Origin: Bactericera cockerelli
Lineage: Eukaryota; Arthropoda; Insecta; Hemiptera; Triozidae
Direction: 5' to 3'
Assembly: GCA_024516035.1 (NCBI GenBank)
Contig: CM044957.1
Span: forward strand, 434,001 to 498,000
Length of the DNA stretch: 64,000 bases
Notes under the pieces: model-generated
What the model was told of the DNA's origin: nothing
What the model saw: the letters and a program-made list of their open reading frames with translations, nothing else
Databases searched by the model: none
Position numbers and translations under genes: made by a program
Shown here: one piece after another, positions 38,218-63,065 of the stretch
Layout: each line of letters starts with the position of its first letter
Position numbering within the stretch: position 1 is the first letter of the stretch

Positions 38218-38425
38218 CTTTCTCCGGCACTGGATCCGACTCTGACGACGTAATCTTGATCATGGCGCTGCCTCGCGGCATTGTGGCCACGGTGGCCACA
38301 CACTGAATGGCGGCCTCTCCATGCAGGAAGTGGTCGGGCCGCAACAGGTAGGTCACGTTCAGCTCTGTGGACTCCAGGAAGCCTTGCTCAGCCACCTGCC
38401 GTGTGTGAGTGAACTCTGAGCTGAT
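38218..38425 (-). CDS. Exon of an immunoglobulin-domain protein (Beat-like)
   Basis: A 208-bp exon bounded by TGTTCCAG|AT (acceptor at 38426-38427) and GAGAAAG|GTAAAA (donor at 38216-38217), ending in phase 1. Codon use is GC-rich against AT-rich surroundings. It encodes the C-terminal half of an immunoglobulin domain, with ESTELNV, RPDHFLHGEAAIQCVATV and a C that would close the domain disulphide. The S-T-x-L, HF-x-x-G and C-x-A-T-[VI] pattern resembles the second domain of insect Beaten-path family cell-surface proteins, from memory. It is the only likely host-gene exon found; neighbouring exons are outside or not recognised. Degenerate copies of its acceptor side follow in 38428-39150. Confidence 0.55.
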
Positions 38426-38427
38426 CT

Positions 38428-43205: not shown

Positions 43206-43400
43206 GACCGCTCGTGGTCAAGATTTAAACTGCTTGTTTCAGTAAAAATCCCAGGAAAAAACACGTGAGGTTGGTATTTCCGTCCTGAAACAGGCTAAGT
43301 GAGGTTATTGTGAGTAGTTGGTGCGATTGCCATTGATTGAAAGGTAGAACCTCCGCGCGCCGTCCTGATACACGGTGAAAAACCAACTGCGAAATTTAAC
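43206..43400 (+). repeat. SINE family C, diverged
   Basis: AACACGTGAGGTTGGTATTTCC, GAAACAGGCTAAGTGAGG, GTAGTTGGTGCGATTGCC, TAGAACCTCC. It ends at or runs into the start of the large DNA transposon. Confidence 0.6.
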
Positions 43401-43423
43401 ATAGTATTGTGATTAATTAAACA

Positions 43424-44165
43424 TACGGGGGACCCTTACAAAGTTAGCATACGCGATATTTTCGACTTTAGCATAAAGTGGTTAGCATAGTTTATGCTAA
43501 CGAAATTTGTCAAAAGTCGTGACGTCATAGTTGTGACGTCATTACTTTTATGCCAACGGATGTATAAAGTTATGCTATTGTTCAATTCAATTCAATTCAT
43601 TGATAGCATAATAACATGTTTAACTTGCATAGTCTATGCTCTGAATTTCATTTGTTTAACATAACATTATACGTATCTTAGCATAAAGTAATTCGCCTAT
43701 CATAAAGATTATGCATACTTGCTGTGTCATTTTCATACCAGTATACGAAGTAAGCATAGTGTTATGCTAACTGTTATGCGAAGTAGGCATACTGTTAAAA
43801 ACCGCATGCTAACGTTGGCATAGTGTTATGCTAACTGTTATGCGAAGTAGGCATACTGTTAAAAACCGCATGCTAACGTTGGCATAGTGTTATGCTAACT
43901 GTTATGCGAAGTAGGCATACTGTTAAAAACCGCATGCTAACGTTGGCATAGTGTTATGCTAACTGTTATGCGAAGTAGGCATACTGTTAAAAACCGCATG
44001 CTAACGTTGGCATAGTGTTATGCTAACTATTATGCAAAGTAGGCATAACAATATACGAACGTTGGTATGGTCACTATGCGACCCTTGGCATAGTGACTAT
44101 GCTAACGTTGGCATAGTCACTATGCCAACGTTCGCATATTCAATATGCGAACGTTCTCATAGCAG
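43424..44165. repeat. Left arm: TATGC-rich array with 64-bp tandem units
   Basis: From about 43745 to 44020 a 64-bp unit (GTGTTATGCTAACTGTTATGCG, GGCATACTGTTAAAAACC, GCATGCTAACGTTG) recurs about 4.5 times almost unchanged. Before it are TAGCATA motifs and two TGACGTCA sites near 43520-43545. After it are short palindromes such as GTTGGCATAGT/ACTATGCCAAC. Confidence 0.9.
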
Positions 44166-44233
44166 TATGCAAAAGTATGCATACAGCTATACGTATGATA
44201 CGTATAGCTGTATGCATACTTTTGCATACAGCT
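44161..44233. repeat. Long palindrome, 28-bp arms, 1-nt spacer
   Basis: GCAAAAGTATGCATACAGCT and its inverse AGCTGTATGCATACTTTTGC surround ATACGTATGATACGTAT. It is perfect over 44169-44225 and extends outward by 8 bp per side with one mismatch. Confidence 0.92.
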
Positions 44234-44429
44234 ATACATATACCTATGTATTTGAATGTACAGAAATTTGCAGGATAGCCTCCGACTAAGTGCATAAATA
44301 TTTTGCACTCGGACGGAAGTCATCTACATGCATATTCCTAGTCATACAAAGTCATAGGATATATGTATTGCCCTATGTGTGGAAAATGAAGAAGAATTCA
44401 ATTATTCAAGTAAATATAATGTACAACAC

Positions 44430-44560
44430 ATTACACTCTTTATTTACAGAAATTACACTTTAAGTTTACAGAAATTACACATTAACAATTTTTAAATTTA
44501 CAGAAATTACACATCAACAACTTTTTATTTGCAGATATTACACTATATATACAGTTAAGA
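44430..44560. repeat. TTTACAGAAATTACAC repeats
   Basis: Three to four copies of TTTACAGAAATTACAC-like units downstream of the transposase gene. One 26-bp copy (44460-44485) is perfectly inverted at 51080-51105. Contains a minus-strand AATAAA (44440-44445) that could polyadenylate the transposase mRNA. Confidence 0.8.
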
Positions 44561-44746
44561 AAAAATACAACTTATATGTTACATTATCAGGGAGCGGTAA
44601 AATGGGGTAATAGAAACAGTCAGGTGTCTTTCAGGTATATTAGTATACCTTTATTACGTATACTCTGTACAGATGAACCTGTATAGCTCTTAGATCACCA
44701 GACAGTTAACAGTTATATCATTTATAAAGAGTACAGTTATGCCTAC

Positions 44747-47176
44747 CTATTCTATGTTGCATCTTAAAGTAACATAAAAAGTGAAGTTGGGTTGAATGGA
44801 AAGCGTATGTGGAATGGGAGAAAATAGGTTTTCCAGAGACAAGTACTCTTTCTCTTCGGTCTGTTGTACTACTTTGTATGCTTGAAAGTGGTCAATAAAG
44901 TATTGACATTGTAATTTAGAACAAATGAAAAAAACTTGTCCGTTACAAACAAAAATGTCTTCTACTTGAACAAAAATTGGAAGCATAGTGTCCATACAAA
45001 GATCTTTCATTAGAATGCTAGATTTTTCTATTTTACAATTTTTCGTTTCCAACCATGTAATGGAAACGAACAAATCTGGGGAACTAACATTGAATTTGGA
45101 TTTCAAAAACTCTGAATGCTCTGTGAAAATGCTCAATTTCCTACCAAAAACTATCCCCTCTACCTTTGAAGTTGATGATAAGTAATGATGTAATGTCAAT
45201 TGGTTTCGCGTTGCAACTGTTTTGCAAATGTTAACTCTAGTACAAGCCGCACGAGCAGCTATTTTTGATACTCTATGCTTAGCTTCAAATCTCATGGTGG
45301 ACAAAGAAACTAATGGACCAAATTTGAGAAACATATCTGGATAATGTAGAAGGAAATGAAACTTAGGCTTCAGGTTCTCTTTTACAACATCACTAAAAGT
45401 CCACAAAAATAGTTCAATTAAATGTCTAAGAGGAGCTATTTCATCCTTTGAAAAGGAACGTACCATTAATTTATCTAATAGTTTCCTCAACAAGACATAA
45501 AGGTCCCAGACCCTGTCGTCTTCAGGAACGTAATACCCAATAATAAGACCAAAATATTTGACAAAAACCATCATTTCAGATCCTGAGCATTTCAGTTTGA
45601 TTGTGGCAGATCCATCATCAAATAAAATATTTGAAGGTTTATTTCGGCTATCCGGACCGAAATCGAAGAAAAAAATTTTTCTTTGTAAGAGTTCAATAGT
45701 CACAAATTTTTTTTCTTTAATTACATAATTTACAACGTAAGATAAGACATAACGACAACAACCTTCTAAATAATCATGAAGAATATCAACAGCAACATTG
45801 TCAAAGAGAGAAAACCCATCTAACTCTAACCAAACACACTTTTCTTTTATTCCTGTTTTTGAAGGATCGTTTACTTCCAGATCTCTGTTATAAGATTCCA
45901 TGTCTCGCAATAGAGTAGTATCTAAAGTATGCATGGTTGCAAGTGCACTCTTGTCAACAGAACAAATTCTACAACAATAATTACCTATGAAACTCTCAAC
46001 GAAACCCAAAATACCGTTTAAGCCCAAATTATCACCAGTGATACTAACGACATGGAATTTTACAGTGCCCTGGAAGTATCTATTGTGAACAGATATACCG
46101 TTACTACTTAGAAAATTTAGTTTCTGGATAATCGGGCTAAAAATAGCCTTGTTCCCAAAGGTACGTCTATCAGACGCATGGAACATCGACAACATAATAA
46201 TGTTGTTCAACTGAGAAAACCAATATGGTGGGAGAAATGGAAGAGACAAATAAACCCCACCCAGTTTTTGAATTCCTGCATGGCTACCTAAGGGATTATT
46301 TACTTCGAAATCATCAAAGTATAAAATTAGTGGGAGATGCATTTCATTTTCTGATTGAACAAAATTTCTTCTTTGCCAAGCATTTCCTTGAACAATGTTA
46401 CTCATTAATTCAGATTAATTGTTAACCATTCTGAAATAGTCAGAAATGCCCTTGAAAATGTGATCAAGGGATAAAATTTTTCCCAAAACCAACTCAACTG
46501 GTATCAACTGAAGAGTACAAGGAGAATGAGACAAACCTCTTCTAACCATATCTAAACGAGACCCTATTGTAATTTCAACGGGTAAAATTAACGTTCCCAA
46601 AATCTGGAAACTCAGAATTCTTTTATGGTCTGAATTCAGATCAGACATTTCGTTTTCAGATGCTACGAACAAGTCTCTTAAATACAAGTGATAATAACTC
46701 TTAGGGAACCCTGATTTATCTATCAAATCAATAACCCTGGTTAAATGATTATTATAGGATGTCAAAAATTCTTCAATGTTAATTACAGAATTTTGAATGG
46801 TACTTCTTGGAATGCCTGGATTTGCATATAGAGAAGTGACTAACTTTCGCAAAGAATCTTTCACCGAGCTTGCTGTGTTCGCTATTTCACGAGACACATC
46901 AATTTCCATGGAAATAGTACTAGCAAGTGGATTATCATCTCGTATGAAAGAATCATTAAGCTCAGATGGTTCACAATCATGATGTAATGTTTTCAAATGC
47001 TTGCGTAGTGCATGCAAATTTGAATAATGTCGACGACAAGAAGGCGCTCCACATGTGAATCGGGAGGAATTACCATTTCTAGCACGTACAGGACATGAGT
47101 CCTTAATGTGCTTACAATATGAAAAAATAGTTTGGAACAATTTTTGACAGTCCTCGCAAGTGAACATAGTAAACAA
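44747..47176 (-). CDS. Zinc-finger DDE transposase, tnp2/CMC-like, one in-frame stop
   Basis: Starts at ATG 47176. Residues 6-65 hold a C-x2-C/H finger and a classical C2H2 finger (C-x4-C-x12-H-x4-H ending HLKTLHHD). The same reading frame continues from the N-terminal part (47176-46415, 253 codons) into the catalytic part (46405-44747, 552 codons), broken only by TAA at 46417-46415. The catalytic part has YFDDFEVNNPLGSH, GDNLGLN, CCRIC, DILHDYLEG and MRFEAKHR in that order. These parallel the D, D, C..C, H-x-x-E and E/H blocks of tnp2-type (CACTA/Plavaka) transposases, and multi-copy uncharacterised animal proteins that I recall beginning with zinc fingers. It would bind arm repeats and cut and join DNA in the nucleus. 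Either a nonsense mutation has killed this copy or it is a sequencing error. The SAM-domain gene lies 324 bp upstream on the same strand. Confidence 0.75.
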
Positions 47177-47500
47177 TATTAAGTAAGCAAATTGAAATAG
47201 ATTAAAACAACAAAAATACGATAAAGGAGCTCAAAATTTGTACCTACAAGTAAACTAAACTAAAACAAATATATTAAAAAAAATTCTGTGTAGGGGGCTG
47301 ACACATGTAGGGGAAGGTGGGGCAAAATGGAAAAGACAAAAAGAAAATGTTTTCAAATATTGGAGGAAGAGAGCAGAAAATAGAGCAAGTTTAACAGCTC
47401 AAAAAGAGGATTGTAAAACCGAGACTTTGATGGTCTGAAATTTAATTAAACTTAACCTCCTTTAGTCCCCACATTCCCCTACTTTGAGCAGACAAATTAC

Positions 47501-48316
47501 CTACCTAGATGCCCTGGCTGCTCTATTTGCTTTAGGCATCAATGCAAGGTCAGCTAAAAGTTTAGTAGTCGGTGCATGAATCTTATCATACTTGGTGGAT
47601 ATTTCGTAGAAACCTAGCTGCAGTGTAAGCCACAGATGTTGACTCTCTTCTGGGTAATTACAATGCGTTACAAAGAAAATCTTGAAACAAAGATCTACAG
47701 CTGCTACAATTGAATTTTGAGGTTGTAGAATGTCATCTACAACACAATAAACATTGGTTGGATTTTTAAAATCACCTACATACATGACATAGGGTAAAGT
47801 GGGTCTGTACATTTTAGTCAATTTTTCAATCCGACTCACCCTGCAGGTTTCTATGTTAGAAGGACTGGACACATGCATTATGAATCCCTCGCAAACTTCA
47901 GACCTTGATGGTTTCCAAGAGTAACTCTTCACCTTTTTTGTGGCAGGAACTGATGTGAGGTAGGGCAGCAATAGCAGGCACTGCGCAGTCCGAACGTCCA
48001 TGTTAGCGTTGGGTGACAACTCTTCTAGGAAACTGACGAGATCACTGGATACAAGATCTTTCCGAGAGGCCCTCTCTTTCACGGCTTTTGCTAGGGTGAT
48101 GATCTTCTCCCTGTGATGGAGAAGGCCTTCAATCAAGCACGTTGTTCTTCCAGGATGCAATATGTCAAAGTCCATGTTTATCTAGAACAAAGAAGAACAC
48201 ACGAGATAAATAATCAACTATCATTGATAGTCAAGAGAAAGAAAAAGAGATAAAGAATGAGAAAAGAAAGTGAGATCGAAATAAATAAAAAATGAATAGA
48301 AAAATAAAAATAAACG

Positions 48317-48393
<77 letters not shown>

Positions 48394-50772
48394 GAGAGGG
48401 ATAGAGAGAGAGAGAGAGATAGAGAGAGAGAGAAATAGAATTGAAAGTAAAATAAAGTGAGAAAAATAGTACTATCCCACATAACAAGAAAATCACCGAT
48501 TTTCTTAGTGTGGGTTGTTTAGGGCATGTTACTCGTATGTCAGTAAATAATAATTATCTATTCAGTATTCAAGTTAATATTAAGGACTTATTGTAAAAAT
48601 GTAATTTCATATAATATCAAAAATCAAAAAGAAATAACTTACCAACACAGGTCCTCTTTCAGGATCCCGCAGAATACGATATGTGTTGAAGTACTGGATG
48701 ATTGATTGAAATTTCTCATTGCCCGCCTGCAAACATTGGAGTCTGTCCCTTGATGTCTCCTCCCAACGGAGTTTGATAGTCTCGAAGGAATCACTTGGAG
48801 TAGCAGTCTCTAACCATTGCAGATAGTTTTGAACTACGGTGTTTTCTGAAAACAAAACAACACATGTTATTAAAAAAGTCACGTAGCCCCACATCTGAGA
48901 TATAAAATTATTTTTTTATAATTTTTTTTTAGTTATTTGTACTAATCACTATTTTGATCACAACTACCCAAACTCGCTTTACCAAATATATGCTTAACCT
49001 GGTACTCGAACCTCCGACCTCCAGGTTACGAGTCCGTCGCCTTATTGATCAGGCTACTGAGGTCTGTTATAAGTTATCGAATTGTAGTTTAAGTATATAC
49101 ATACCTACGGTAATGAATGTGTCTGTTGCAATGCTTTTGTTCAACTCCGAGTCCTCCTGCTCTTGGTTTTCACGGTTCTGACTTGGCCTTCGCTTCTTGA
49201 ACTCGATGACACCTTCCTTCTTTCCTTTATTTCTGAGATTTCGCCAGATTTCATACAGCAAGCCGGACGTGGAGCTCCGGTAAGGCTTATCTTTCTTTGA
49301 AGAAAATGCTTCAGGTAGATCATTGTCGCTGTCATTGGAACGGTACAATTTGAACCAGATGGTGGAGGTTTCTCGTTCAAAAGGAAACTGTTCTATGATT
49401 AGGTCCCGTATTCTCATGAAGTCGATTGTTGAAAGTGTCCGCTGGGGGCAGTGTGAAAATATGTACTTCATGATTGCTTGAGCAACAGCCTGCCGATCAT
49501 ATGACATGAAGGAAGTCATGTTGAGGTATGATTGCTTCTGCGAATTTGATACTCTTGAGAGCGCTCTATGAATCAGTGGTTTGTCAAGTGCCACAAAGAT
49601 ATTAGAGGTGTCGGGCATATTGCTTCCTGTAGTTACATTGCTTGGTGTTCCTTCAGGTGTCAAGGCTGGCGTGAGTCCAGGTGTCAAGACTGGCGTGAGT
49701 CCGGACTCTGGTGTCACAACTGGTGTGGTGTGCCCACCCACCGGTGTTGATGTCCAAGACCCCGAAGAACTCCATTGTGAAGAGTCATAATGAGACGATG
49801 AAGCAGTTCTCCATGCATCTAATATGACACTACTTGAAGAATGGCCAACGTTGTCTAGAGTTGTGTACGATCCTCCGTCTTGCAGAGATTGGCCATGTGG
49901 GAACTGATGTGATGTGCTTGGTTGAAATTGAATCATCGAGGTGTCTTCTTGTAAGAATTGGCTTTGTTGTTCACACTGTTTAATCCATTCGTCCCGTTTT
50001 TTGCGTAGAATGATGATGTGAGCAACACAGTCAATGAGCAGTTTCATCTCCGCCGGCTCCATGTCCCTCAGAATGTCCGTGGTGATTTGGTTATCTGAAA
50101 CAGACATGAGTACCAATATATACTAGTGGATCAAACTGATCAGGTATTCAGGTTAGGCATTAAATTTGGCATTAAAAAATGCCCAATATGGGCTTTCAAA
50201 TTTGGTAGGGGGCCCAAATTTTTCAAAATGAAATAGCCCTTAATACCAGACAAAACATAATATCAAAATTTTATTTTTAAGGAATAAAAACTATACAGCA
50301 AAATTCCTTCGGCACGTTCAAAAACTATAGCGAAGGTAATTATTTGAAAAACAGCATTTAATATTTCTCACCTGATTTCATATATTATATTTTGTTTTAA
50401 ACAAATTAGATAACAGAGAAAAACGTGTTTTGGCAATGAAAACTGACTATCGAAAATTTTGGTCGATTCCATTATTTTCCTTTCTTAAAGGACAAAGAAA
50501 TTAAAGAGGTAACACTGGAGTCAGATTTAAATGAGAATTTTCCGAGGAAAGAATTGAAATAACTAAAAGGAAAGACTTTGAATAACAGTAAATTGGATAT
50601 TACGAACAACCGTCGAACACTTGTACTGGCCAACAATGTAAATTTCGATTCGAACCGTCGGAAATTTCAATTTTGTGTTAAAGGAAATAAAGGAAAACTT
50701 ACTTGCAAATGTTTCCACGTACTGCTGTAGTCCCCAGGCAGTTAGAAGGTCTGATACTGATACACTGTCCAT
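47501..50772 (-). CDS. SAM-domain accessory protein of the transposon (four exons)
   Basis: Four exons with canonical sites and matching phases: 50772-50703, 50094-49105, 48845-48643 and 48181-47501 (donors GTAAGT, GTATGT, GTAAGT; acceptors TTTCAG, TTTCAG, TTCTAG). The junctions rejoin a sterile alpha motif domain: exon 1 LLTAWGLQQYVETFA, exon 2 ITTDILRDMEPAEMK. A Ser/Thr/Pro-rich linker with TP repeats follows. Next is an all-helical segment (YIFSHCPQRTL, IIEQFPFE, IWRNLRNKGK). The last exon has DFDILHPG, a LLLLPYLT segment and CFKIFFVTHCNYPEES. About 650 residues in total. The same domain order occurs in uncharacterised multi-copy animal proteins I recall from fish and insects, so it is probably a transposon-encoded partner and not a host gene. 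SAM domains mediate oligomerisation. The role is inferred. A GTAGGT after AG at the 3' end could be a donor into a downstream exon. Confidence 0.75.
48322..48436. repeat. (GA)n microsatellite in intron 3 of the SAM gene
   Basis: Nearly uninterrupted GA tract with a few GATA and GGGA variants. The all-S/L frames across it are artefacts. Confidence 0.95.
48930..49066 (-). repeat. SINE family D inside intron 2 of the SAM gene
   Basis: Plus strand CGAACCTCCGACCTCCAGGT and GATCAGGCTACTGAGGTC. It lies wholly between exons 3 and 2, so the gene has tolerated it. Confidence 0.8.
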
Positions 50773-50868
50773 GATGAGTCTTCAAGAATAACCAACTCAC
50801 ACAAGCACTCGACAACAACTAATGAGGAAGAACCAAGGAGCACTTGACTTGATAGCAACTAATGAAGT

Positions 50869-50905
50869 AATGAGACATTGCACCCAGGTTAAGGTGCTTA
50901 TATAG
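50869..50905 (-). promoter_or_regulatory. Core promoter of the SAM-domain gene
   Basis: Minus-strand TATATAAG at 50905-50898 and an initiator-like CTCATT at 50874-50869, about 31 nt apart. This spacing suits an arthropod TATA/Inr promoter and gives a ~100-nt leader to ATG 50772. Confidence 0.6.
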
Positions 50906-50949
50906 GACCTTTGAACATCAAAGGTTGAATCCTCTTCGAGGGTACACTC

Positions 50950-51931
50950 CACTAAGAAGATTTAGATTACATAATAGGTACAAATTTTGAGCTGAACTAA
51001 ATATTTTAAGTAACTAAGATACTATGTGAACAATAAGAAACTGGGTACATTTTTTTAGAATAGGTAGGTAAAATTTAAATTAATGTGTAATTTCTGTAAA
51101 CTTAAGCAAGATTTTAATTTTATCATTAAGCTATTTCATTTTAGACTTTTTAGCAGACAATTCCTCTCCTTCGCCTGCGTCGTCTCCTAAAATTTCACTC
51201 ACTGACATTACGAACGTACTTAATACAACCTTGCCTTGTCACACTTAAAAAGAAATGATCGAACCGAACACAACTATCTTTATTGGAAACATAAAACCTT
51301 AGCATGAAATCATACAAACCGCCCTATTTCTATGCTAAAAATTATGCAGACTTTACATAAGTCTATACGAAGAATGTCAATCATGTTAAATTAGCATGAA
51401 TCTATAGCTCTTATTTTTATGTTTGTATAGTTTTATACGAACAGCCCTCATTGGCATGAAATGCATGCGTAAAGTAGCATACAATTACTTTATATGCGAA
51501 ACACGTATGGTTTATGCTAATAGTTTAGCATAGCAGTTATGCTAAGACTGTGAGGTATACGAATTTGGCTTGAAGTTATGTCTTCAATTTTCCTGTATGT
51601 ATAACTCTATGCAAACATTTTGCGTTGACATAAAAAGCATGCAGAATTAAGTATAAAGTGCCTTTTTGTACGAAAAATGCATGGTTCATGCCACCAAGTT
51701 TATGTTAAGCACGAGCGGTGTACCAATTTAGCTTGAAGTTATGTCTTCAAATTTCCTGTATGTATAACTTTATGCAAACATTTTGCGTTGACATAAAAAG
51801 TATGCGGAAATAGGTGTAAAGTGCCTTTTTGTACGAAAAATGCATGGTTTATGCGACCGAGATTATGTTAAGCACGAGCGGTGTACCAATTTGGCTTGAA
51901 GTTATGTCTTCAAATTTCCTGTATGTATAAC
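50950..51931. repeat. Right arm of the DNA transposon, with 163-bp tandem units
   Basis: TAGCATGAAAT, TATGCTAA and similar motifs from 51290. Then a 163-bp unit begins at 51594, 51757 and 51920 (TGTATGTATAAC, GCAAACATTTTGCGTTGAC, GTGCCTTTTTGTACGAAAAA, TTATGTTAAGCACGAGCG). The third unit is split by the retrovirus and resumes at 60068. Confidence 0.88.
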
Positions 51932-52328
51932 AGTTACAGCCAGCTAAATAGCTGACTATACACCTTTTTATGCTGATCCAATTGTATGATAATTCTCACA
52001 CTATTGTTATGCGTGAGAGCCCTTTGGCATAGGACAAGGCAGTTTTAGACTCAGACTTGCATCGAGCAAGATCTTAAATCGTTTAAGATATAATTTTATT
52101 TAATTATTAATTAATAAATTATTAATTTCTTATTCTTTACTTTCTAAGTTATTACTATAAGTGTATTCTCCATTTTATTAATTCATAATCTTATTCCTAA
52201 TAAACTACTGTTTTCACTCACTTAAGTGTTTAGAACTCTTGTATTCTTATTATATTAATTTATAAGTATTTCAGTGTTTCGAAATAAACTTTTTTAAAAA
52301 GCCAACGGCAGGAGCCTGGCTTGTAACT
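51932..52328 (+). repeat. 5' LTR, 397 bp
   Basis: Ends are the inverted pair AGTTACA and TGTAACT. Carries TTATAAGTATTTCAGTG (possible TATA/initiator at about 52260-52280) and AATAAA at 52199-52204. Confidence 0.96.
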
Positions 52329-52345
52329 GGCGCAGTCGATTTTAA
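52328..52345 (+). other. Primer-binding site
   Basis: TGGCGCAGTCGATTTTAAC at the LTR border, sharing its first ten bases with copy 1. Type resembles the tRNA-Ser primer of the 17.6/297 group (from memory). Confidence 0.7.
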
Positions 52346-52388
52346 CGGATCAAGGCTTCCAAAAAGACCATAAAAAACTAAAAATTTA

Positions 52389-52431
<43 letters not shown>

Positions 52432-53156
52432 ATCTTTGATAAATTTATAAAAGTGTATAACAGTGCCTAACAGTGTAATAGTGCCTGATTATCATTATTA
52501 TTGGATTACCCACGGGACCATCTCTACGGGATAACTCCCATTTCTTCATCAGCCAACACCAAGAGACTACCTATTCACATCGCACCAGGAACTCCAGAGT
52601 CCAGAACCCCAGATCAGCACTCAGCACTAGAGACAACAGACACACATCGCTACCATTGTCTCAGGCGCTAGGCAGAGCAAGGACCCCACAAGGAGCTTCA
52701 GCAGTGGACTGTGAATCTTATCTCTTTGCACCGGCGATGTCATCATTTCTACTTATACTGTAAGAATTATTTACTTCACATTATTATTGTTTAAAGGTGT
52801 TTACTCCTTTCCTGACTTCCTAGTACTACTTAGTACTTGTTGTTTACCTTTTCTCCTTGTAGAATAATCTAATATTTTTTTATCTCACATATATTGTTTA
52901 CTGGCAGTTTTATTACTCCAGATACTAGCGGTCACCTATTGACCTACTCATATCAATTATCCTTTCGCGTATAATTCTTGCTGTTTATTAATTTTATCCT
53001 TATCTTTTGTTAACGTTTTATTATTTTTAAAATTTCATCACGGATTCAGAATCCGATAATACCCAGTCAACTGACTCTGGGTCAAACTCTGATATCGAAT
53101 ATCAAACGGATTTAGTGGTTCAAGACGAACTTGTAAATCTATTTACCAACCTAAAC
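52329..53156 (+). other. Retroviral leader
   Basis: Contains a 36-nt A run (about 52391-52428). ATG at 52737 precedes a donor-like CTGTAAGAATT, as in copy 1 near 24750. An open acidic stretch without an ATG (53040-53156) leads in frame into gag. A spliced or non-AUG extended Gag is possible but the phases did not resolve. Confidence 0.5.
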
Positions 53157-54170
53157 ATGGCTCCACCAGAATTGAAGGGCGATCATTTAAAGATGATCCC
53201 TGAATTCAGAGGGGAGGTCGCACTCCTATCTGAATTTATTTCATTGGGGGAAAGTCTGGTCACGCATTTTTATGATGCGGCCGATCCCAACAATTTTCAA
53301 AACATATTCCTAATGAATTCCTTAAAAGCTAAAATTTTGGGAGAAGCAAAATTAAACTTGAGTACCTTCTCAATCACTACTTGGGCACAGTTAAAAAACG
53401 CTCTTCTCACCACGTATGGCGACAAGCGGGACTCTTGTACGCTAACCTTAGAATTGTGTAATATGAATCAAGGGAATGATTCAGCTTTTGATTTTTATCA
53501 GCGGGTTCTAAAGCATGTTAACCTGCATGGAAATTATTTAAGTACACATACCGACATAGAAGGACCACAATATGTAAATGCGTACATTGGTAAACTTGGC
53601 TTGAGGACTTTCCTCAGAGGACTGGAAGAACCCCTTGGCTCGCTAATGCGAACCCGAAACCCAACTAACCTTAACGAGGCGTTAAATATTCTAACTAACG
53701 AATTTCAAATTGACGCTAGTAGGAAAGCCGGTCAGTACCAAAAGTTTCTACACAAAAATCAAAAATGGACACAACATGGAAACAACAATTCTGCCAAATA
53801 TGTTCCACCTCCCATGAAAAATAACAATAATTACTCCCCAAACACCCAGTTTTCTCAAATAGGTAACACCGTCAACAATGTTCAACGCAATAACTATGCT
53901 CAACAGTATCAACCTAAACAAGCCAGCGGTGTCAACCGACAACCAACCAACAACAATTACTCTAACGTCTGGAACAGAAGTTCGGGACCTTCTACTAAGC
54001 CAACACCGATGTCAGCCATGACGACACGCTTGAACAACATAGAAATGGTTACACAGGGACAAGACGACATGGAAAACCCAAACTATGAAGAACAGGAGAC
54101 ATGCTATACCGAGGATACCTACCCGGATCAGGATTTTCGGGAACCAGCCTTGGAAACTCCGGAATATTGA
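53157..54170 (+). CDS. Gag polyprotein
   Basis: Forms the virus-like particle. Start chosen at ATG 53157 because MAPPELK is shared with copy 1. The frame is open further upstream (a GTG lies at 53115). Conserved core: LKMIPEF.GEV, NPNNFQN-like, YGDKRD, LCNM, YVNAYI..LGLRTFL, EPLGSLMR. The C-terminal third is N/Q-rich and ends acidic. No CCHC zinc knuckle is visible, as in several errantiviruses. The TGA stop overlaps a pol ATG (TGATG, 54168-54172), and the pol frame overlaps the last ~70 nt. Confidence 0.92.
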   Translation: MAPPELKGDHLKMIPEFRGEVALLSEFISLGESLVTHFYDAADPNNFQNIFLMNSLKAKILGEAKLNLSTFSITTWAQLKNALLTTYGDKRDSCTLTLELCNMNQGNDSAFDFYQRVLKHVNLHGNYLSTHTDIEGPQYVNAYIGKLGLRTFLRGLEEPLGSLMRTRNPTNLNEALNILTNEFQIDASRKAGQYQKFLHKNQKWTQHGNNNSAKYVPPPMKNNNNYSPNTQFSQIGNTVNNVQRNNYAQQYQPKQASGVNRQPTNNNYSNVWNRSSGPSTKPTPMSAMTTRLNNIEMVTQGQDDMENPNYEEQETCYTEDTYPDQDFREPALETPEY

Positions 54171-57100
54171 TGAACCTAACAAATCACGAGAATATGCTCC
54201 CGTTTCTCATCATCCCAGGATTGAATTTGAAAATGCTCATTGACACGGGGAGCACCAAATCTTTTATTAACCCAGAAAAAGCTAAAAACCTTTTTTCAAA
54301 ATACATTGAACATGACCCATTTGAAATTAACACTGCTCATGGACGATCTTACGAAAAGTACAGCGTAACTATTCCTTTCCCACAAATTTTCAAAGCAAAA
54401 GGGAACATGAAGCTACATTTGTTCAAATTCCATGACTACTTTGATTGTTTACTTGGTATTGATAATATGAAAATCTTGAACATGATTGTCGATCTCAAAA
54501 ATAACATGTTAATATCACCTACTGCTGAAATACCTATTTACTACAGAGACTCAGGATTTCATCTGAACCACATCACGTTAGCACCACAAGAAGAACAAGT
54601 AGTATCAGTCAGTGTAACCAGCCAAAAAGATGGAGAATATCTCATTCCGCACACCAAGTTGGGTTCTGCTTTCATACCCGAAGGTATACTCACGGTTAAA
54701 AATAATCAAGCTATCTGTATATTGGTGAATAGCACGGAATCAGACCAAGAAATTGTTGTACCACCTGTAGAAGTGTTACCAATAGAAAAGTATGATATCA
54801 CCTCTACTTATTCAAATTTTAATATGATTCAGACAAATAACTCGGATTTCGATTATAGTAAAATTAGAACAGAACACTTGAATATCGAAGAAAAAAAAGC
54901 GACACTAAAACTAATAGAAGAATATCAACAAATATTTCACTCAGAGGACAAACCACTCTCATTTTCCAATACCGTCAAACATATCATTCGAACTACCGAT
55001 GATGTACCTGTTTATAAAAAATCGTTCAGATACCCTCATGCACAAAAAGAGGAAGTGCAAAGACAGGTACAGAAATTGTTGGACGACCATATCATTCGAC
55101 CATCTCATTCACCATGGGCATCACCACTTTTCCTTGTACCTAAGAAAACGGACGCCTCAGGTAAGAAGAAGTGGCGCGTAGTATTAGATTACTCACGTTT
55201 AAATGAGAAGACAATAGGGGATCGCTACCCTATGCCAAATATAACCGATCTTTTGGACAAGTTAGGTAAATGCATGTACTTCACAACGCTAGACTTAGCT
55301 TCTGGATTTTTCCAAATAGAAATTGATCAAGAGAGTATTCCCAAAACAGCGTTCAATGCATTCGGACACTGGGAATTTGTAAGAATGCCGATGGGCCTGA
55401 AAAACAGTCCAGCGACATTTCAGAGAGTGATGGAGGACATCCTAACAGGACTCATAAATAAAATTTGTGTTGTGTATTTGGACGACATATTGATTTTTGG
55501 AACAAGTCTTCAAGAGCACATAGAAAACGTACGCCTTGTCTTCGATAGATTAAAAAGAGCAAATCTGAAGGTTCAACTGGACAAGTCGGAGTTTTTAAAG
55601 AAAACTGTGGATTATCTTGGACACGTAGTGACACAAGACGGAGTTAAACCCAACCCTAAGAAAATTGAGGTAATCAAAAAGTATCCTATACCCAAGACTA
55701 CTCGCCAAATCAAAGCATTCCTAGGACTTCTATCTTACTATCGTAAATTCATTAGGGACTTTGCCACCATCACAAAACCCTTGACCAAAAGACTCAAGAA
55801 AAATTCAAAAATCAACATAGAAGATACTGACTACAAAGAATGTTTTGAGTTATGTAAAACACTTCTAGTAGAGGAACCCATCCTTCAGTATCCCGATTTT
55901 TCCAAACCGTTCATATTGACCACAGATGCGAGCAACGTCGCAGTGGGTGCAGTATTATCCCAAGGACCAATAGGAAGTGACAAGCCTATAGCCTACGCTA
56001 GCAGAACATTGAACGAGAGTGAATGTAACTACTCTACCATCGAAAAAGAACTTTTAGCCATCATATGGGCAGTCAAGTATTTCAGACCCTACCTGTATGG
56101 TCAAAAATTTACAATCATCACAGACCACAGACCTCTCCAATGGCTATTTTCCATGAAGGAGCCGAGCTCAAAACTCACAAGATGGAGACTAAAGCTCGAA
56201 GAATATAACTATGAGATAGTCTACAAAAAAGGATGTATGAACACGAACGCAGATGCCTTATCGCGCATAGAATGTAATGCTGTGAACGCAATCCAGCAGT
56301 TTATTCAGAAGACAAAACAAGAAATTGCCGGTCAACTGAGTTCAAATGAAAACCCGGATCAGTCAAGCAATAACGAAAACTTGAATCAGGTAATTCCTGA
56401 CAGCGATAATTTCTCAATAATACCAGAACCAGACGACACCTTGGACATCGCAGAAATTGACAAATTTATAGAAGATACCTACGAAAATTTGCATAATGAA
56501 GAAATGCCCTCTCAAGCGGACATAACACTACATCAAGAAGACATTGACCTCGAGACACTTAACACCATTCACTCGAGCGAAGAGAATCCCCTAATAGGTA
56601 TTCCCATTAGTGAAGATCCACTCAACGTGGGGAGAAATCAAATAATTCTCTTGAGAAGTAACAACCCTCAAGAATGCGTGCTGAAGAACATTAAAATTCT
56701 TCACAAAGATAAACAAAGAAGAGAGGTACAATTATCTCCAAACAACCTGGAGAAGCAAATGATAGATTTCTTAAAAACCCAAATAGCTCCCAAGGTAAAA
56801 TATCATCTATATTTCAAAGATGATGATTTATACCCCCTGCTGTCCAAAGTCCTTCAAAATTATTTCAAAAATTCACAGATGAACCTCGTAAAATGTACTA
56901 AGGTTTTAATTGATATAACAGACGAGAACAAGAAAATAGATACAATAAAAAAACTACATGATGGAAAAACAAATCACAGAGGAATGGATGAAACTTGCAG
57001 ACAGATCAAAGAACTCTACTACTGGCCCAACATAGCCAAGTCCGTTCAAGACTACATAAATACTTGCGAAATCTGCCAAAAGACTAAATATGACCGACAA

Positions 57101-57991
57101 CCCTTAAAACTCACATACAACTTAACACCCACAACATTAAAACCATTTGATGTATTGCATATAGACACAATCTCCTTTGAAAATTCAAAATATCTCACAA
57201 TTATTGACCCTTTCTCAAAATTTGCTCAAGCACATCTACTTCGTTCATCCCATGCAACTGAAATTGCCGGAAAATTAATTGAAAGCTTTTGTCACCATGG
57301 TATTCCACGCCAAATAATATCCGACAACGGTGGCGAGTTTAAAAACTCTGTCATCAAAGAACTTCTATCTCTACACAAAATTAATATCCATTTTACTTCC
57401 TCTCAACACCCGGAGTCGAATGGAATAATTGAAAGATTTCACTCGACACTCATAGAGCACATCCGCTTACTAAATAATCGCGAAGAATTCAAGAATGACT
57501 CCTTAAGTACAAAAATGAAATATGCGCTTATCGCCTATAATCACACCGCTCACTCAGTAACAAAGCTTAAGCCCATAGAAGTTGTTACAGGTCATCTGGA
57601 ACTTGCGGATGTTACAGAAATCAATACTGAGGAGTTAATTACCTCCAACTATGTAGCCCAGCATAAAGAGAGAACTAAACTTCTTTATCAAAAAATTCAT
57701 AGCAAAATTTCAGACAGTAAAGAAAAGATCATATCAACTAGGAACCTAGGAAGAGAATCACTTCCTCAAATTCCTCAAGAAGTTTGGGTTAGAAACAAAC
57801 AAAAACAAAGTAAAACTCAAAATAAGTATAAACCTGAGAGTATCAAAAGAATTGATGAAAAGTTGAAAACTGCCGAGATTAATCCCACCCACCACAACAC
57901 AGCAGAGAAAATTCATCTTTCCAACATTAAAAGACCGCATAAAATCTTTCCAGGTTCATCTGCAGCTGCGGCGCAGAGCAATTCCGAATAA
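54101..57991 (+). CDS. Pol polyprotein: protease, reverse transcriptase, RNase H, integrase
   Basis: Numbering from 54101. Aspartic protease DTG at 48-50. Reverse transcriptase with WRVVLDYSRLN, LDLASGFFQI, PMGLKNSPATFQ and catalytic YLDDI near 458. RNase H TTDAS near 606, then ITDHRPL. Integrase zinc domain LHDG-x3-NH and C-x2-C near 950-985, and catalytic D near 1020 (HIDTIS), D near 1074 (SDNGGEF) and E near 1109 (GIIERFH). 1296 codons is normal for gypsy-type Pol. No stop or frameshift. Expressed from the gag mRNA by -1 frameshift or by reinitiation at the ATG 54170 that overlaps the gag stop. Confidence 0.96.
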   Translation: MLYRGYLPGSGFSGTSLGNSGILMNLTNHENMLPFLIIPGLNLKMLIDTGSTKSFINPEKAKNLFSKYIEHDPFEINTAHGRSYEKYSVTIPFPQIFKAKGNMKLHLFKFHDYFDCLLGIDNMKILNMIVDLKNNMLISPTAEIPIYYRDSGFHLNHITLAPQEEQVVSVSVTSQKDGEYLIPHTKLGSAFIPEGILTVKNNQAICILVNSTESDQEIVVPPVEVLPIEKYDITSTYSNFNMIQTNNSDFDYSKIRTEHLNIEEKKATLKLIEEYQQIFHSEDKPLSFSNTVKHIIRTTDDVPVYKKSFRYPHAQKEEVQRQVQKLLDDHIIRPSHSPWASPLFLVPKKTDASGKKKWRVVLDYSRLNEKTIGDRYPMPNITDLLDKLGKCMYFTTLDLASGFFQIEIDQESIPKTAFNAFGHWEFVRMPMGLKNSPATFQRVMEDILTGLINKICVVYLDDILIFGTSLQEHIENVRLVFDRLKRANLKVQLDKSEFLKKTVDYLGHVVTQDGVKPNPKKIEVIKKYPIPKTTRQIKAFLGLLSYYRKFIRDFATITKPLTKRLKKNSKINIEDTDYKECFELCKTLLVEEPILQYPDFSKPFILTTDASNVAVGAVLSQGPIGSDKPIAYASRTLNESECNYSTIEKELLAIIWAVKYFRPYLYGQKFTIITDHRPLQWLFSMKEPSSKLTRWRLKLEEYNYEIVYKKGCMNTNADALSRIECNAVNAIQQFIQKTKQEIAGQLSSNENPDQSSNNENLNQVIPDSDNFSIIPEPDDTLDIAEIDKFIEDTYENLHNEEMPSQADITLHQEDIDLETLNTIHSSEENPLIGIPISEDPLNVGRNQIILLRSNNPQECVLKNIKILHKDKQRREVQLSPNNLEKQMIDFLKTQIAPKVKYHLYFKDDDLYPLLSKVLQNYFKNSQMNLVKCTKVLIDITDENKKIDTIKKLHDGKTNHRGMDETCRQIKELYYWPNIAKSVQDYINTCEICQKTKYDRQPLKLTYNLTPTTLKPFDVLHIDTISFENSKYLTIIDPFSKFAQAHLLRSSHATEIAGKLIESFCHHGIPRQIISDNGGEFKNSVIKELLSLHKINIHFTSSQHPESNGIIERFHSTLIEHIRLLNNREEFKNDSLSTKMKYALIAYNHTAHSVTKLKPIEVVTGHLELADVTEINTEELITSNYVAQHKERTKLLYQKIHSKISDSKEKIISTRNLGRESLPQIPQEVWVRNKQKQSKTQNKYKPESIKRIDEKLKTAEINPTHHNTAEKIHLSNIKRPHKIFPGSSAAAAQSNSE
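54131..54137 (+). promoter_or_regulatory. Candidate -1 slippery heptamer for Gag-Pol
   Basis: G GAT TTT in X XXY YYZ phase of gag, with the pol frame open in -1. It aligns with A AAT TTT in copy 1. Both heptamer types are used at retroviral pro-pol junctions (from memory). Confidence 0.65.
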
Positions 57992-58096
57992 GAAATATTA
58001 CCCAGAACCTCGGTGTCCTGCCAATCAATCTAGGCAAAGCAATGCTTCAAAAATCTACTCACACAAATAGTCCATTATTACGATCTCCAACCCCTT

Positions 58097-59662
58097 ATGG
58101 AAGAATTTTCCAGCCTCAACAACCAATACGAGTACATTCAAGAGAGAACTGCAAATCAGACATCAGAATTAGCAAGTTTTACACAGAAAGAACTAAACAA
58201 CTATTTTAAGATGGTAAATCACCTACAGAAAGTAACTCAAGATAAAATTGATGTGATTAATTTCTCCTTTCTTTCCCAAAGAAAGAAAAGAGCTCTGTTT
58301 CCCGAGTTAGGATCTCTTATTAAAATAGTTACAGGAAACCTGGACTCAAAAGACGAAGAACATTACAATCTCATTTTACAGGACTTATCCAAAAACCAAG
58401 ATAACCTTAAAAATCAACTTGACCTACAGTATTCCCTAAATCAAGAAGCTGTTAAAAGGTTTGAATTGACATTGCAGAACATTGAACATAACGAAGAGCT
58501 TTTACATAGAAAAATTTCATTATTAGGTGATTTTTTCCAAAAGGAAGGGACACCTAGTCTTATGATAGCAGAAGATGCATTTCACCAAATAATAATATTG
58601 TATAACAACCTCATAAGTGTATTACAGGACATTGAAAATTCATTGACATTTTGTAGAGCTAAGTTGTATCATCCCAGTATACTGAGACCATCTGAACTTA
58701 AAAACGAACTTAATAGGTTGAAAACCTTTTATAGTAATAAAATTCCACTAGAAATTAATAGTATTTCAGACATCCAAAACCTCTTGGATGTCAACTGTAA
58801 GGTTGAAAACTCAAAGGTCATTTATTTCCTTTCCTTCCCCATCAACTATGATAGCCAATATGATTTAATTTTTCTCACATCCATCCCATCTCTAAATGAA
58901 CTAGGCTTCACAACAATCATACCAAAAACCCATTACTTCCTTAAAGCTAATACTATAGTAAAACCTTTAAATGATATTTGTGAATTAAGTAAACCATTCC
59001 AGTGTTTTCAGAGAAATGTCAAAAACAACCTGAAAGAATGTGAGAAACAAATTCTCCTAAACGAAAAACCAGACTCTTGTGAACACATCACCTTAGAAAT
59101 CACCGAGAACTATATTGATTTTATTCCGCAGATTAATATGTTTATCATTGTTTTTCCTTTTAGTGAAAGCATTAAATTAGAATTTGAAAAGGAAATTGAA
59201 ATAAAAGAACTGAGGGGCATTTTTTTAATTGAATCAATTAAGGGTAATCTCATTTTCAGAGACGAAATACTAAGCTTTTCATCAAAATCTTCAGGAAAAC
59301 CTACTATTTTAGAGGATGTGAACATAAAAATTGACAAATCAAAAATATCTAACTCGAAAATAAAGATCCATGATTTAAACCTGAATGATATTAGACTCAA
59401 TCATTTAACCCCTACCAATTTAGAGATTCAAACTTCTTTTAAACCATGGAAGATATTAATATGTACCACTCTCTCCTTAACCCTCTTATTGATAATACTT
59501 GTTTTTAAGAAACCAGATTTTAGAATAATATTTTTGAAAATGTTTAAGAAAGAGGAGCTTAGAAAGGATCAAGTTTTTCCCACAGGTTCTTCAAATTTTA
59601 ACCCATCACCAAAACAGGGAATCAATCCCAATCTTTCTCTCCCAGGGGATGCAAAGTTCTAA
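58097..59662 (+). CDS. Env glycoprotein, errantivirus type (F-like)
   Basis: 521 codons, uninterrupted. A furin-type site RKKR at residues 62-65 is followed by a hydrophobic, Gly-containing segment with a later NLDSKDE stretch. This is the layout of insect errantivirus Env, which is related to baculovirus F proteins. Coiled-coil-like helices span about 80-190. There are several Cys in the middle, a transmembrane helix at about 452-470 and a lysine-rich tail. The visible ATG lacks a signal peptide, and the frame is open upstream to a TAG at about 58031-58033 that doubles as an AG acceptor-like site. The real start is probably supplied by splicing, as is known for this group. Ends just before the polypurine tract. 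Confidence 0.88.
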   Translation: MEEFSSLNNQYEYIQERTANQTSELASFTQKELNNYFKMVNHLQKVTQDKIDVINFSFLSQRKKRALFPELGSLIKIVTGNLDSKDEEHYNLILQDLSKNQDNLKNQLDLQYSLNQEAVKRFELTLQNIEHNEELLHRKISLLGDFFQKEGTPSLMIAEDAFHQIIILYNNLISVLQDIENSLTFCRAKLYHPSILRPSELKNELNRLKTFYSNKIPLEINSISDIQNLLDVNCKVENSKVIYFLSFPINYDSQYDLIFLTSIPSLNELGFTTIIPKTHYFLKANTIVKPLNDICELSKPFQCFQRNVKNNLKECEKQILLNEKPDSCEHITLEITENYIDFIPQINMFIIVFPFSESIKLEFEKEIEIKELRGIFLIESIKGNLIFRDEILSFSSKSSGKPTILEDVNIKIDKSKISNSKIKIHDLNLNDIRLNHLTPTNLEIQTSFKPWKILICTTLSLTLLLIILVFKKPDFRIIFLKMFKKEELRKDQVFPTGSSNFNPSPKQGINPNLSLPGDAKF

Positions 59663-59671
59663 GGGTGGAGG
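59661..59671 (+). other. Polypurine tract
   Basis: AAGGGTGGAGG directly abuts the 3' LTR, the plus-strand primer site. Confidence 0.88.
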
Positions 59672-60067
59672 AGTTACAGCCAGCTAAATAGCTGACTATA
59701 CACCTTTTTATGCTGATCCAATTGTATGATAATTCTCACACTATTGTTATGCGTGAGAGCCCTTTGGCATAGGACAAGGCAGTTTTAGACTCAGACTTGC
59801 ATCGAGCAAGATCTTAAATCGTTTAAGATATAATTTTATTTAATTATTAATTAATAAATTATTAATTTCTTATTCTTTACTTTCTAAGTTATTACTATAA
59901 GTGTATTCTCCATTTTATTAATTCATAATCTTATTCCTAATAAACTACGTTTTCACTCACTTAAGTGTTTAGAACTCTTGTATTCTTATTATATTAATTT
60001 ATAAGTATTTCAGTGTTTCGAAATAAACTTTTTTAAAAAGCCAACGGCAGGAGCCTGGCTTGTAACT
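59672..60067 (+). repeat. 3' LTR, 396 bp
   Basis: Identical to the 5' LTR except for one missing T near 59949. AATAAA at 59939-59944 is the likely polyadenylation signal. Confidence 0.97.
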
Positions 60068-60250
60068 TAACTTTATGCAAACATTTTGCGTTGACATAAA
60101 AAGTATGCGGAAATAGGTGTAAAGTGCCTTTTTGTACGAAAAATGCATGGTTTATGCGACCGAGATTATGTTAAGCACGAGCGGTGTACCAATTTGGCTT
60201 GAAGTTATGTCTTCAAATATTTCATTTGTATAACTTTATGTGTGTGCATC
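60068..60250. repeat. Remainder of the split transposon-arm unit
   Basis: Continues the third 163-bp unit from TAACTTTATGCAAACATTTT to TTATGTCTTCAAATATTTC. Sequence similarity to the arm ends near 60250. Confidence 0.9.
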
Positions 60251-60273
60251 GATACTGTTATGTTCAGGATCGT

Positions 60274-60277
<4 letters not shown>

Positions 60278-60358
<81 letters not shown>

Positions 60359-60590
60359 AACCACATACACACACACATTACACACACACAGTACACACAC
60401 ACAGTACACACACACAGTACACACACATACATACACACACGCAGTACACACAAACACACACACACACATACATACACACATACACATACATACACACACA
60501 CACAGTACACACACACATACATACACACACACACAGTACACACACACACAGTACACACAAACACACACAGACACACACACAGTACAAATG
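60278..60590. repeat. (CA)n microsatellite, complex
   Basis: Pure CA to about 60357, then CA interspersed with CAGTACAC and ACATACAT variants. The His/Thr and Cys/Val frames on either strand are artefacts. Confidence 0.97.
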
Positions 60591-60884
60591 AAAAATATTT
60601 GGGCAAAAAAGTGGTTTTTTGTGAAATTGGTATGAAAAGTTGAAAGTTTAACAATTGTCTTTAGTAATTCAGGTAATTTTTATAACATTTTACTCTCGAA
60701 CATTTTGCTCTCAGATCATTCATTTTTGCTGCAGAACTCCCGTAAGTTGAGTTGATCATTTTTCCCCAATTCAGGTGGCCACTAATAATTTGTAGGTATA
60801 TAGGTGCTCATATAGGTGCTCACTACAGCATTGTAGGATTTTTTCCAGTAAATCCAAATCTAATTATATAATCCATCTTTTCTG
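60591..60884. other. No gene recognised
   Basis: No supported feature. Confidence 0.3.
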
Positions 60885-61072
60885 TAATTGCTGAGGACAA
60901 GTCGCTATGGACAATACCTCCATATATAGATTGTCGTTACGAGGCTGAATGGGTCCCGAAAACATCCAAACCCATGTTGACAAATTATTGTCTCCGCCGG
61001 GATTCGAGCCCGGGTCTAACGAGTGCAAAGACCACTGAGCCATGTGCTGTGGGAGCTGGTCCCGTCGTATAT
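60885..61072 (-). repeat. tRNA-derived SINE, family G
   Basis: Minus-strand head CACATGGCTCAGTGGTC (A box) and GGGCTCGAATCCCGGCGG (B box), then body AATTTGTCAACATGGG and CATTCAGCCTCGTAACG. Confidence 0.75.
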
Positions 61073-61734
61073 TAACATCAGGTATATGAATTGTACACAC
61101 AATACTTTATACTCCACATAGGTGTTTCGAAGTTCAGTTCAAATGTTCCAAATGTCATTAAAAAAGGTTCTTTCACTCGTATACCTGCGATCCATGCAAA
61201 AACAGAGGATGACCTCTCTCCATTAGTGACCCAATTGATATACGTCGCCGGCTGGTCAATATGAGTGGTGTGGTTATACATAACATAATATAGGTATATA
61301 TGCTTTAAATTTCCGAAAGCCTCATCACCGTTAAATATACCTTTAACCTTTGCCTCTAAAATCCTTCCATTGTGTATTATTACCTAATATTAATAGATTT
61401 CAGAGTCCATTTCTCGAGTCTAGCCCATAGCACTATTTCATTTATTTATATAAGCTACGCAACGCTCAGGTAGGTATAACAGGTAGGTTTAAAGGTATAT
61501 TAATGTGTTTCCCACGGAATCTGTTTGAGTAATTACAACACAAAAGCTAAGAATAATATAGGTATTAGATAATATTCCCGGGAATTACGTTTAAGGATTA
61601 TTTAACATGGGCGAAACACATTTGAAAATATTATCAAGGTTTCTATATGATTAATTTTTTGTAAAGGTATATCACATTATAATATAATACGTATTGTAGT
61701 ATCCCCAGCTAAATGTAGAACCCTCGTCAGTAAC
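61073..61734. other. No gene recognised
   Basis: AT-rich. No supported feature. Confidence 0.3.
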
Positions 61735-61815
61735 TTAAACAGTAACCAAACCATCACGGTTGCAAATTATTGCCCCCGTCAGGGTTCGAACCCGGGTACT
61801 CATTCATGCGGGAGC
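61735..61815 (-). repeat. SINE family G fragment
   Basis: Plus strand AAATTATTGCCCCCGTCAGG and GTTCGAACCCGGGTACTC. Confidence 0.6.
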
Positions 61816-61821
61816 TGGACT

Positions 61822-62206
61822 AGTTTAGCATATAATTCATGCTAAAGTATTTATGCTACCCTAAGAAAACAGTTATTTTATGTTAAGATTTTGTTAGCAT
61901 GAAATTATACGAACTTCACTATACATGTTCCGCATAAAAAGCTTCTCTTAGCATACATGTGGCACTGTTAGCATACATGAGATGACGTCATTAAAACCTG
62001 TTGTATAAAATTAAGCTAATTTTAGTATAAAAAACTTTTATGCTAAAGCCATTTTTATACGAACGGCTCTTTTTGTGTAAATTATGCTAAAATTATGTAT
62101 AAACGCGAAAAAATTGATTTTTTTTAGCATAAAATATGCTAAATTACTATAGTTTTTATGCGAATGGTTTTTATACAAACTTTTTAAAAAATCCTTTTTC
62201 AGCGTG
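61822..62206. repeat. Segment related to the DNA transposon arms
   Basis: TTAGCATATAATTCATGCTAA, repeated TAGCATACATG, TGACGTCATT, TTTTATGCTAAAG and AGCATAAAATATGCTAA. It ends TTTTTCAGCGTG followed by TA. The motif density and TGACGTCA match the left arm near 43520. It is either the true right end of the transposon or a truncated second copy. Confidence 0.65.
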
Positions 62207-62812
62207 TAGTTAGAACATTGCTTGAAAACTAGAAGATCGTAAGTAGTAATAATAACAACAATGAACTCCGCGATAATCATGAACAACGTAAACTGTAGAA
62301 CCAAGAAAAACAAATTCAATGCTTTCAAATCTTTCAATAGGTATCTCATAATAAATATACTCACAAGAAAGAACATTTACATTAATTTAGAAAAGTAAAT
62401 AACAGACTTGTAGAAACTCAGAAAACACAGTACCTAATAATAATAAACTGAGCAACATAGAAATAATAATAAACTATAATACTTAAAAATAATAACAGGA
62501 GAACACTCGGAGTTAACAATAGAAAGCAATTCTCAGGATGGACAGGGAAGAAAACAAAACGAAATGAGCTTTCCAAGAAAGGTGGGAGGGAGGGAGCTGA
62601 TAATGACACTTAGCGGTTGAAAGATGAATGTTTAGCTGAGGAGAATCTTATAATAGAACTAATCTTCAACAGAAATGTGGTTACCTTTAATGGAAACGAA
62701 GACGAGAGACCTTGAATCCAAAGAGAAAATAGAGGATCTCAAAATGGATTAAAAGGTGGTTTGTAGAATTTTCACAGAAATCGTAGATTTTTTTTTAAAT
62801 CATGGTAATAAT
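62207..62812. other. No gene recognised
   Basis: AT-rich. No supported feature. Confidence 0.3.
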
Positions 62813-63065
62813 TAGCCAGCGGAAGCTGGCGTAACGCTTGAGACTACTGCCCGTAGTCCAGAGATCCCGAGATCGATCCTGGGTTGAGGTAGACTTTTTG
62901 AAGAAAATTCTGTTCCTTCCAAACACGTGAGGCTGGCAATTCCGTTTATACCCAGGCAAGGTTAGGTTCATGTGGGTAGCTGGTTCGATTCCCAGTGAAT
63001 GGAGGGTAAAACCCCCGTCCTGACTATCTATCTCAATCAGGATGTTAAAACCAAATGAAATCAAC
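62813..63065 (+). repeat. tRNA-headed SINE, family C
   Basis: CTACTGCCCGTAGTCCAGAG head, GTGAGGCTGGCAATTCCG, GGGTAGCTGGTTCGATTCCC, GAATGGAGGGTAAAACCCCC. 3' part shortened relative to 17530-17885. Confidence 0.8.

Follow-up and report, generated by a model that had tools for sequence, protein, structure and literature searches.

The stretch analysed here, referred to as the window, comprises 64,000 nucleotides of the insect Bactericera cockerelli (Hemiptera, Triozidae; assembly GCA_024516035.1, contig CM044957.1, positions 434,001 to 498,000 of the forward strand). It contains a DNA transposon with two minus-strand genes, one for a transposase and one for a protein with a predicted SAM domain, and the evidence supports its placement in the CACTA/EnSpm-type clade with the SAM gene as a recurrent second gene. 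Copies (L numbers) were sought in the 565-Mb assembly, whose contigs carry C numbers and in which the window is C3:434001-498000. The parts of the transposon in window coordinates are:

43369..43370, unstranded: left target-site duplication TA (sequence), paired with 62207-62208
43371..62206, unstranded: whole transposon copy, including a later insertion at 51932-60067; left end common to 18 of 20 fetched copies
43371..43384, plus strand: left terminal inverted repeat CACGGTGAAAAACC (copy alignment)
43444..44260, unstranded: left subterminal arm, with TATGCTAA-type sites and 64-bp tandem repeats (43754-44047)
44747..47167, minus strand: single-exon transposase gene of 805-806 codons in intact copies; catalytic and zinc residues conserved, RAG1-like model
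47501..48181, minus strand: SAM partner exon 4, conserved C-terminal domain (predicted splice; genome copies)
48643..48845, minus strand: SAM partner exon 3 (predicted splice)
49105..50094, minus strand: SAM partner exon 2, rest of the SAM domain, linker and basic central domain (predicted splice)
50703..50772, minus strand: SAM partner exon 1, start of the SAM domain (predicted splice)
51290..51931, unstranded: first stretch of the right subterminal arm, holding 163-bp tandem repeats (51554-51931); the arm resumes at 60068-60240
61807..62206, unstranded: outer stretch of the right subterminal arm, holding TATGCTAA-type sites
62193..62206, minus strand: right terminal inverted repeat CACGCTGAAAAAGG, read inward on the minus strand (copy alignment)
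62207..62208, unstranded: right target-site duplication TA (sequence), paired with 43369-43370

A 501-bp probe covering the transposase 5' end and the adjoining gap (47000-47500) matched at least 40 genomic places at about 99% identity (best 40 of 137 candidates), and the 20 copies fetched and aligned to the window are the top of this list, not a random sample. Homology starts at 43366-43371 in 18 of the 20 aligned copies, and 15 extend beyond position 60250. An earlier sequence-only reading had placed the limits of the element at 43424 and 60250; copy alignment, termini and duplications move them to 43371 and 62206. The two terminal inverted repeats are identical in 11 of 14 bases. Right-end stretches were fetched for 15 copies, with the end found in 13, and all 12 other copies readable at both ends show matching 2-bp target duplications (TA in nine, TG in two, AA in one), as does the window copy with TA/TA. 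Exact matches to the 30 bp of the left end number 127 across the genome, and a control pattern has none. When the window flanks were joined with one TA, contiguous matches were found on C348 (89% over 1-202 of 202 bases) and on C3 (positions 22-199, 88%); the remaining listed places, the two flanks of the window itself excepted, match the left part only, which is a common repeat. A SINE-like (short interspersed element) repeat flanks the transposon on both sides (43259-43336 and 62921-62998), the left one having about 77-81% identity to 36 other listed places.

Subterminal repeat arms are typical of CACTA elements. The arms described from the sequence were confirmed in both tandem arrays listed above, and the three arm stretches hold 30, 10 and 10 TATGCTAA-type sites against 0.65, 0.43 and 0.28 expected, the first figure referring to 43371-44260 and the last to 61800-62206. 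The 6.1-kb gene body has one such site (1.03 expected). The motif set was picked after reading the arms, with expectations taken from 100 Markov samples per stretch.

The spacing of the two genes stands as first described, 324 bp on the minus strand, with the SAM stop at 47501 and the end of the transposase open reading frame at 47176. The window transposase carries a premature in-frame stop at 46415-46417; this position is open in 19 of 19 readable copies among the 20. The catalytic blocks D, D, C..C, H..E and E/H reported earlier were confirmed, and an alignment of 26 sequences shows them to be conserved, with D284, D378, C398-x2-C401, H603-x3-H607 and E627 invariant. Structure modelling and fold comparison predict a RAG1/BbRAGL/HzTransib fold for the core. 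The C-terminus (residues about 669-799) is predicted to form a BAH-like domain, in agreement with a BAH fold test; it may resemble plant DUF4216 and may be shared by plant CACTA transposases. The label 'tnp2-like' held for the CACTA/EnSpm-type clade and is weak for tnp2 itself: Pfam tnp2 (Transposase_21) scores 12.7-13.3 bits (E 0.05-0.07) against the window-family transposase, far under the cut-off of 28.6 bits, and the predicted structure points to the RAG1/Transib fold. Among the 26 aligned proteins Transposase_21 matches seven at E up to 1 (best 2.9e-5). Compared with the residue spacing of RAG1 in the available text of PMC4914335, the RAG1-like spacing in the transposase suggests cutting of the RAG/Transib type. 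The best named homologues come from Cyamophila, Cacopsylla and Diaphorina; the accessible part of a report on Cacopsylla genomes (PMC13003732) contains no CMC or CACTA term. A match under cut-off to PF02918, a domain of a pertussis toxin subunit (E 8.4e-4), falls on the zinc-finger region; it occurs in one of the 26 aligned proteins and was dismissed as chance.

The four-exon structure proposed for the partner gene was borne out, GT-AG exons splicing into a predicted protein of 647 aa. The top profile match of the partner is the SAM domain of tankyrase (E 0.003), and the best SAM match of a family member reaches E 2.5e-5. All six families compared have a basic central domain (isoelectric point 9.0-10.1), and the C-terminal part was modelled at a mean predicted local distance difference test score (pLDDT) of 75. 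The C-terminal half may resemble vertebrate SAMD3-like proteins. The spliced SAM frame is complete in 16 of 20 copies, being broken in L012, L014 and L015, with the exon-2 string not found in L018; both frames are complete in nine of the 20.

Adjacency was scored among the matches listed, a partner being counted when listed within 4 kb, and this scope applies to all such figures below. The sequence-only reading had named a SAM gene that is single-copy, syntenic and apart from the transposase as the finding that would refute its interpretation. The opposite was found: 41 of 42 near-identical full exon-4 copies (from the best 150 of 419 candidates) have a listed transposase, 38 of 40 window-family transposase places have a listed exon 4, one of the two misses (C4:18261833) being adjoined by broken exon-4 pieces, and the pairing recurs in diverged families and in gene models of three insects. 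Further transposase families were found with a Cyamophila homologue as query (best 56 of 274 candidates), and upstream DNA was fetched for six of them, A-F. The partner gene was detected by tblastn in A, B and F (E 5e-10, 3e-31 and 1e-72) and by spliced alignment in A, B, D, E and F, upstream and on the transposase strand, the SAM domain being divided by an intron in every case; for family C only the SAM start was recovered by spliced alignment. In A, B and F identity to the window family is 40-49% for the transposase and 22-37% for the partner.

These observations bear on two simpler explanations. The two genes could belong to two different elements, one nested in the other, and the window does hold a nested retroelement; both genes, however, lie between one pair of ends in the aligned copies and the pairing recurs in other families, so that this explanation is scarcely credible. 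A host gene captured by chance, or a neighbour, carried along as a passenger is likewise largely refuted and very improbable, given the same gene order, strand and SAM-splitting intron in families A, B, D, E and F, whose transposases are diverged where measured (A, B and F), the mostly complete SAM frames in the copies, and the partner sequence that adjoins transposases in gene models of a butterfly, a beetle and a psyllid.

The latter come from a set of 120 listed homologues, 11 of which have long unaligned ends and were compared to the partner profile. Three matched: Brenthis ino P0054 (E 5.4e-63), Ceutorhynchus assimilis P0081 (5.3e-45) and Diaphorina citri P0096 (8.4e-42); the remaining eight gave no partner-profile match. 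In all three the gene model extends past the transposase N-terminus into partner sequence, and that of Brenthis has a SAM domain at residues 3-42 (Pfam E 0.0015, under cut-off). The three joined models look like neighbouring genes merged by annotation, true fusion being a possibility. One model each from a butterfly, a beetle and Diaphorina covers Lepidoptera, Coleoptera and Hemiptera, and because related pairs adjoin in butterfly and beetle gene models the SAM partner looks like an old part of the transposition machine.

Judged from its copies, the window element is a recently active insect transposon. In family F, a sister family (the L044 family), 32 full-length transposase copies have no stop codon and all are shown as 100% identical in protein, which is a sign of very recent movement; the family may be active now. 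A further 73 window-family exon-4 matches (among the best 150 of 419 candidates) are restricted to residues 62/63-226. The sole truncated copy read, L050 (C2:4115500-4125000), has both termini and the TA duplication and is without most of the transposase and without SAM exon 1, so that internally deleted copies appear to have been moved in trans.

Taken together, the locus probably represents a two-gene cut-and-paste DNA transposon of the CACTA/EnSpm-Mirage-Chapaev-Transib (CMCT) clade in which the SAM protein serves the same machine as an accessory factor. The sequence-only reading had it as an obligate factor that clusters arm sites or recruits the transposase, which is possible. The transposase, with two N-terminal C2H2 fingers, a DDE core with a C2/H2 zinc site and the BAH-like tail, would bind and cut the ends; the SAM protein would self-associate through its SAM domain, and its basic central domain would perhaps help to gather subterminal sites into one complex. 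The TATGCTAA-type sites may be read by the transposase fingers, by the SAM protein or by both. TnpA of maize En/Spm binds many short subterminal sites, and the job of the SAM protein may be likened to that of TnpA in plant En/Spm or of the partner RAG2, as an analogy only: kinship to either is supported by no test.

A number of results weigh against such a role for the partner. To bind the subterminal sites, the zinc fingers of the transposase could suffice. SAM_1 in the window protein (E 2.7e-4, 21.7 bits) stays under the Pfam cut-off of 23 bits, at E up to 0.1 SAM_2 is found in three and SAM_1 in only two of six family proteins, and of the three joined models only that of Brenthis has a SAM match, P0081 and P0096 matching later parts of the partner. 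A PDB fold search with the modelled C-terminal domain gave no convincing match (best E 0.3). The full-length SAM protein and the SAM alignment gave nothing at E <= 0.001 in a set of 5.8 billion proteins, with low-complexity linker words and a query length of about 1132 (P0054 has 1136 aa) as suspected limits; scans of viral contigs and genome contigs gave no relatives. The partner models of the other families, with 4 to 7 predicted exons, come from our own spliced aligner. Across 21 pairs, identity between SAM proteins follows that between transposases only to a moderate degree (r 0.42), which falls short of proving strict co-inheritance. In family F a transposase was listed at 44 of 52 exon-4 places and an exon 4 at 46 of 57 transposase places, leaving 8 and 11 unpaired; in the other families the figures are 9 of 29 and 9 of 14, leaving 20 and 5. 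Since these are counts among matches listed, a miss does not show that a partner is lacking. Two of the five transposases with no listed exon 4, C3:20373070 and C10:28076960, stand at places where tblastn and spliced alignment did detect the gene, and a third, C7:19317126, marks the locus of family C.

A different division of labour would make the SAM protein a regulator or shield that acts on expression, silencing or chromatin for the spread of the element and is dispensable for cutting and joining. The transposase already has fingers of its own and a full catalytic layout, and fungal relatives in the clade carry a TET/JBP gene thought to aid escape from silencing (PMC12730594, available text). 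The recurrence of the partner in other families and in gene models from three further insects is more in keeping with a core component than with an optional one, and we regard the regulator as somewhat unlikely. On the preferred reading of the SAM protein as an accessory factor, a broader proposal can be put forward tentatively: an ancient two-protein module, in which a RAG1-fold transposase with a tail like a BAH chromatin reader would work with a SAM partner that polymerises to assemble the synapse, of the same build as RAG1/RAG2 with an unrelated partner, maintained across at least three insect orders and still mobile in the present insect. Next to RAG and En/Spm, the element itself would add a lineage whose RAG1-fold transposase is accompanied by a recurrent partner protein. 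Some unnamed insect database proteins termed 'C2H2-type domain-containing' would be transposases, and the SAM genes upstream of them transposon parts. Near-identical copies with both reading frames complete make the role of the partner directly testable.

The right arm is interrupted by a complete long terminal repeat (LTR) retroelement, which the sequence-only reading had overlooked:

51932..60067, plus strand: LTR retroelement inserted later into the right arm and foreign to the transposon; LTRs 51932-52328 and 59672-60067

The LTRs are about 396 bp long, their aligned pieces are 99-100% identical, and the insertion is bounded by the duplication TAAC (51928-51931 and 60068-60071). Open reading frames lie at 53115-54170 (gag position), 54101-57991 (pol-like by eye) and 58097-59662 (env position), and the element looks errantivirus-like. 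GGCGCAGTCG adjoins the 5' LTR and is taken by us to be a tRNA-Ser primer site. Elsewhere the window has a large minisatellite with units of 30, 45 and 135 bp (10483-13515), a 21-bp tandem repeat in 13 copies (27999-28274) and a 140-bp tandem repeat in 3.5 copies (38409-38887).

For classification, the available text of PMC12730594 defines CMCT transposases by D, D and E with C(2)C and H(3-4)H between the second D and E, and gives mostly 5'-CA..TG-3' termini and target-site duplications of 2-5 bp. The 26 aligned sequences show this catalytic and zinc layout, the termini read CACGG...CAGCGTG, and the duplication is 2 bp in the window copy and in the 12 others. The CAGCGTG end is likewise present in family F, closing it as CACGCTGAAAAA. 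The strict EnSpm/CACTA core CACTA is absent, the termini being CACGG/CACGC. Membership in Plavaka, named earlier, is rejected on the same termini, as Plavaka ends are TGT..ACA or CATCA..TGATG (same source, available text); Pfam Plavaka nevertheless matches one of the 26 aligned proteins at 3.8e-4 and P0081 at 7.4e-5. Membership in ESTA, defined by TA target duplications, was rejected in view of the TG and AA duplications in three of the 12 copies. The element was not found described in the literature searched, and as Repbase and most subscription journals were outside the search the family may already have a name. Literature searches on SAM domain with transposase/CACTA or DNA transposon, on SAMD3 with transposable element and on BAH with transposase gave nothing apparently relevant, as judged from the listings.

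With the EnSpm/CMCT clade the element shares its subterminal repeats, a CACTA trait. It also shares CA..TG ends (CAC..GTG is given for EnSpm) and short target duplications (PMC12730594, available text), and differs in its mostly TA 2-bp duplication, its CACGG/CACGC termini, the SAM gene and the BAH-like C-terminal domain. SmTRC1 and the other animal TRC elements, which have Transposase_21, are alike in being animal elements of the CACTA clade with 2-bp duplications, and SmTRC1 is reported to have more than one protein product; the terminal inverted repeats of S. mansoni, A. aegypti and T. castaneum start with CCC, and a SAM protein is not mentioned in the accessible text (PMC1636069). Maize En/Spm also yields two proteins from one element, from tandem TNPD and TNPA frames (same source and extent), whereas the element described here has two separate genes, each with its own exons. 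The predicted transposase core would share the fold of RAG1, BbRAGL and HzTransib. ProtoRAG, like this element, consists of one catalytic gene and one partner gene; RAG2 carries Kelch and PHD domains, and the RAG/Transib duplication is 5 bp. In the element from B. cockerelli, by contrast, the partner has a predicted SAM domain, both genes lie on one strand and the duplication is 2 bp.
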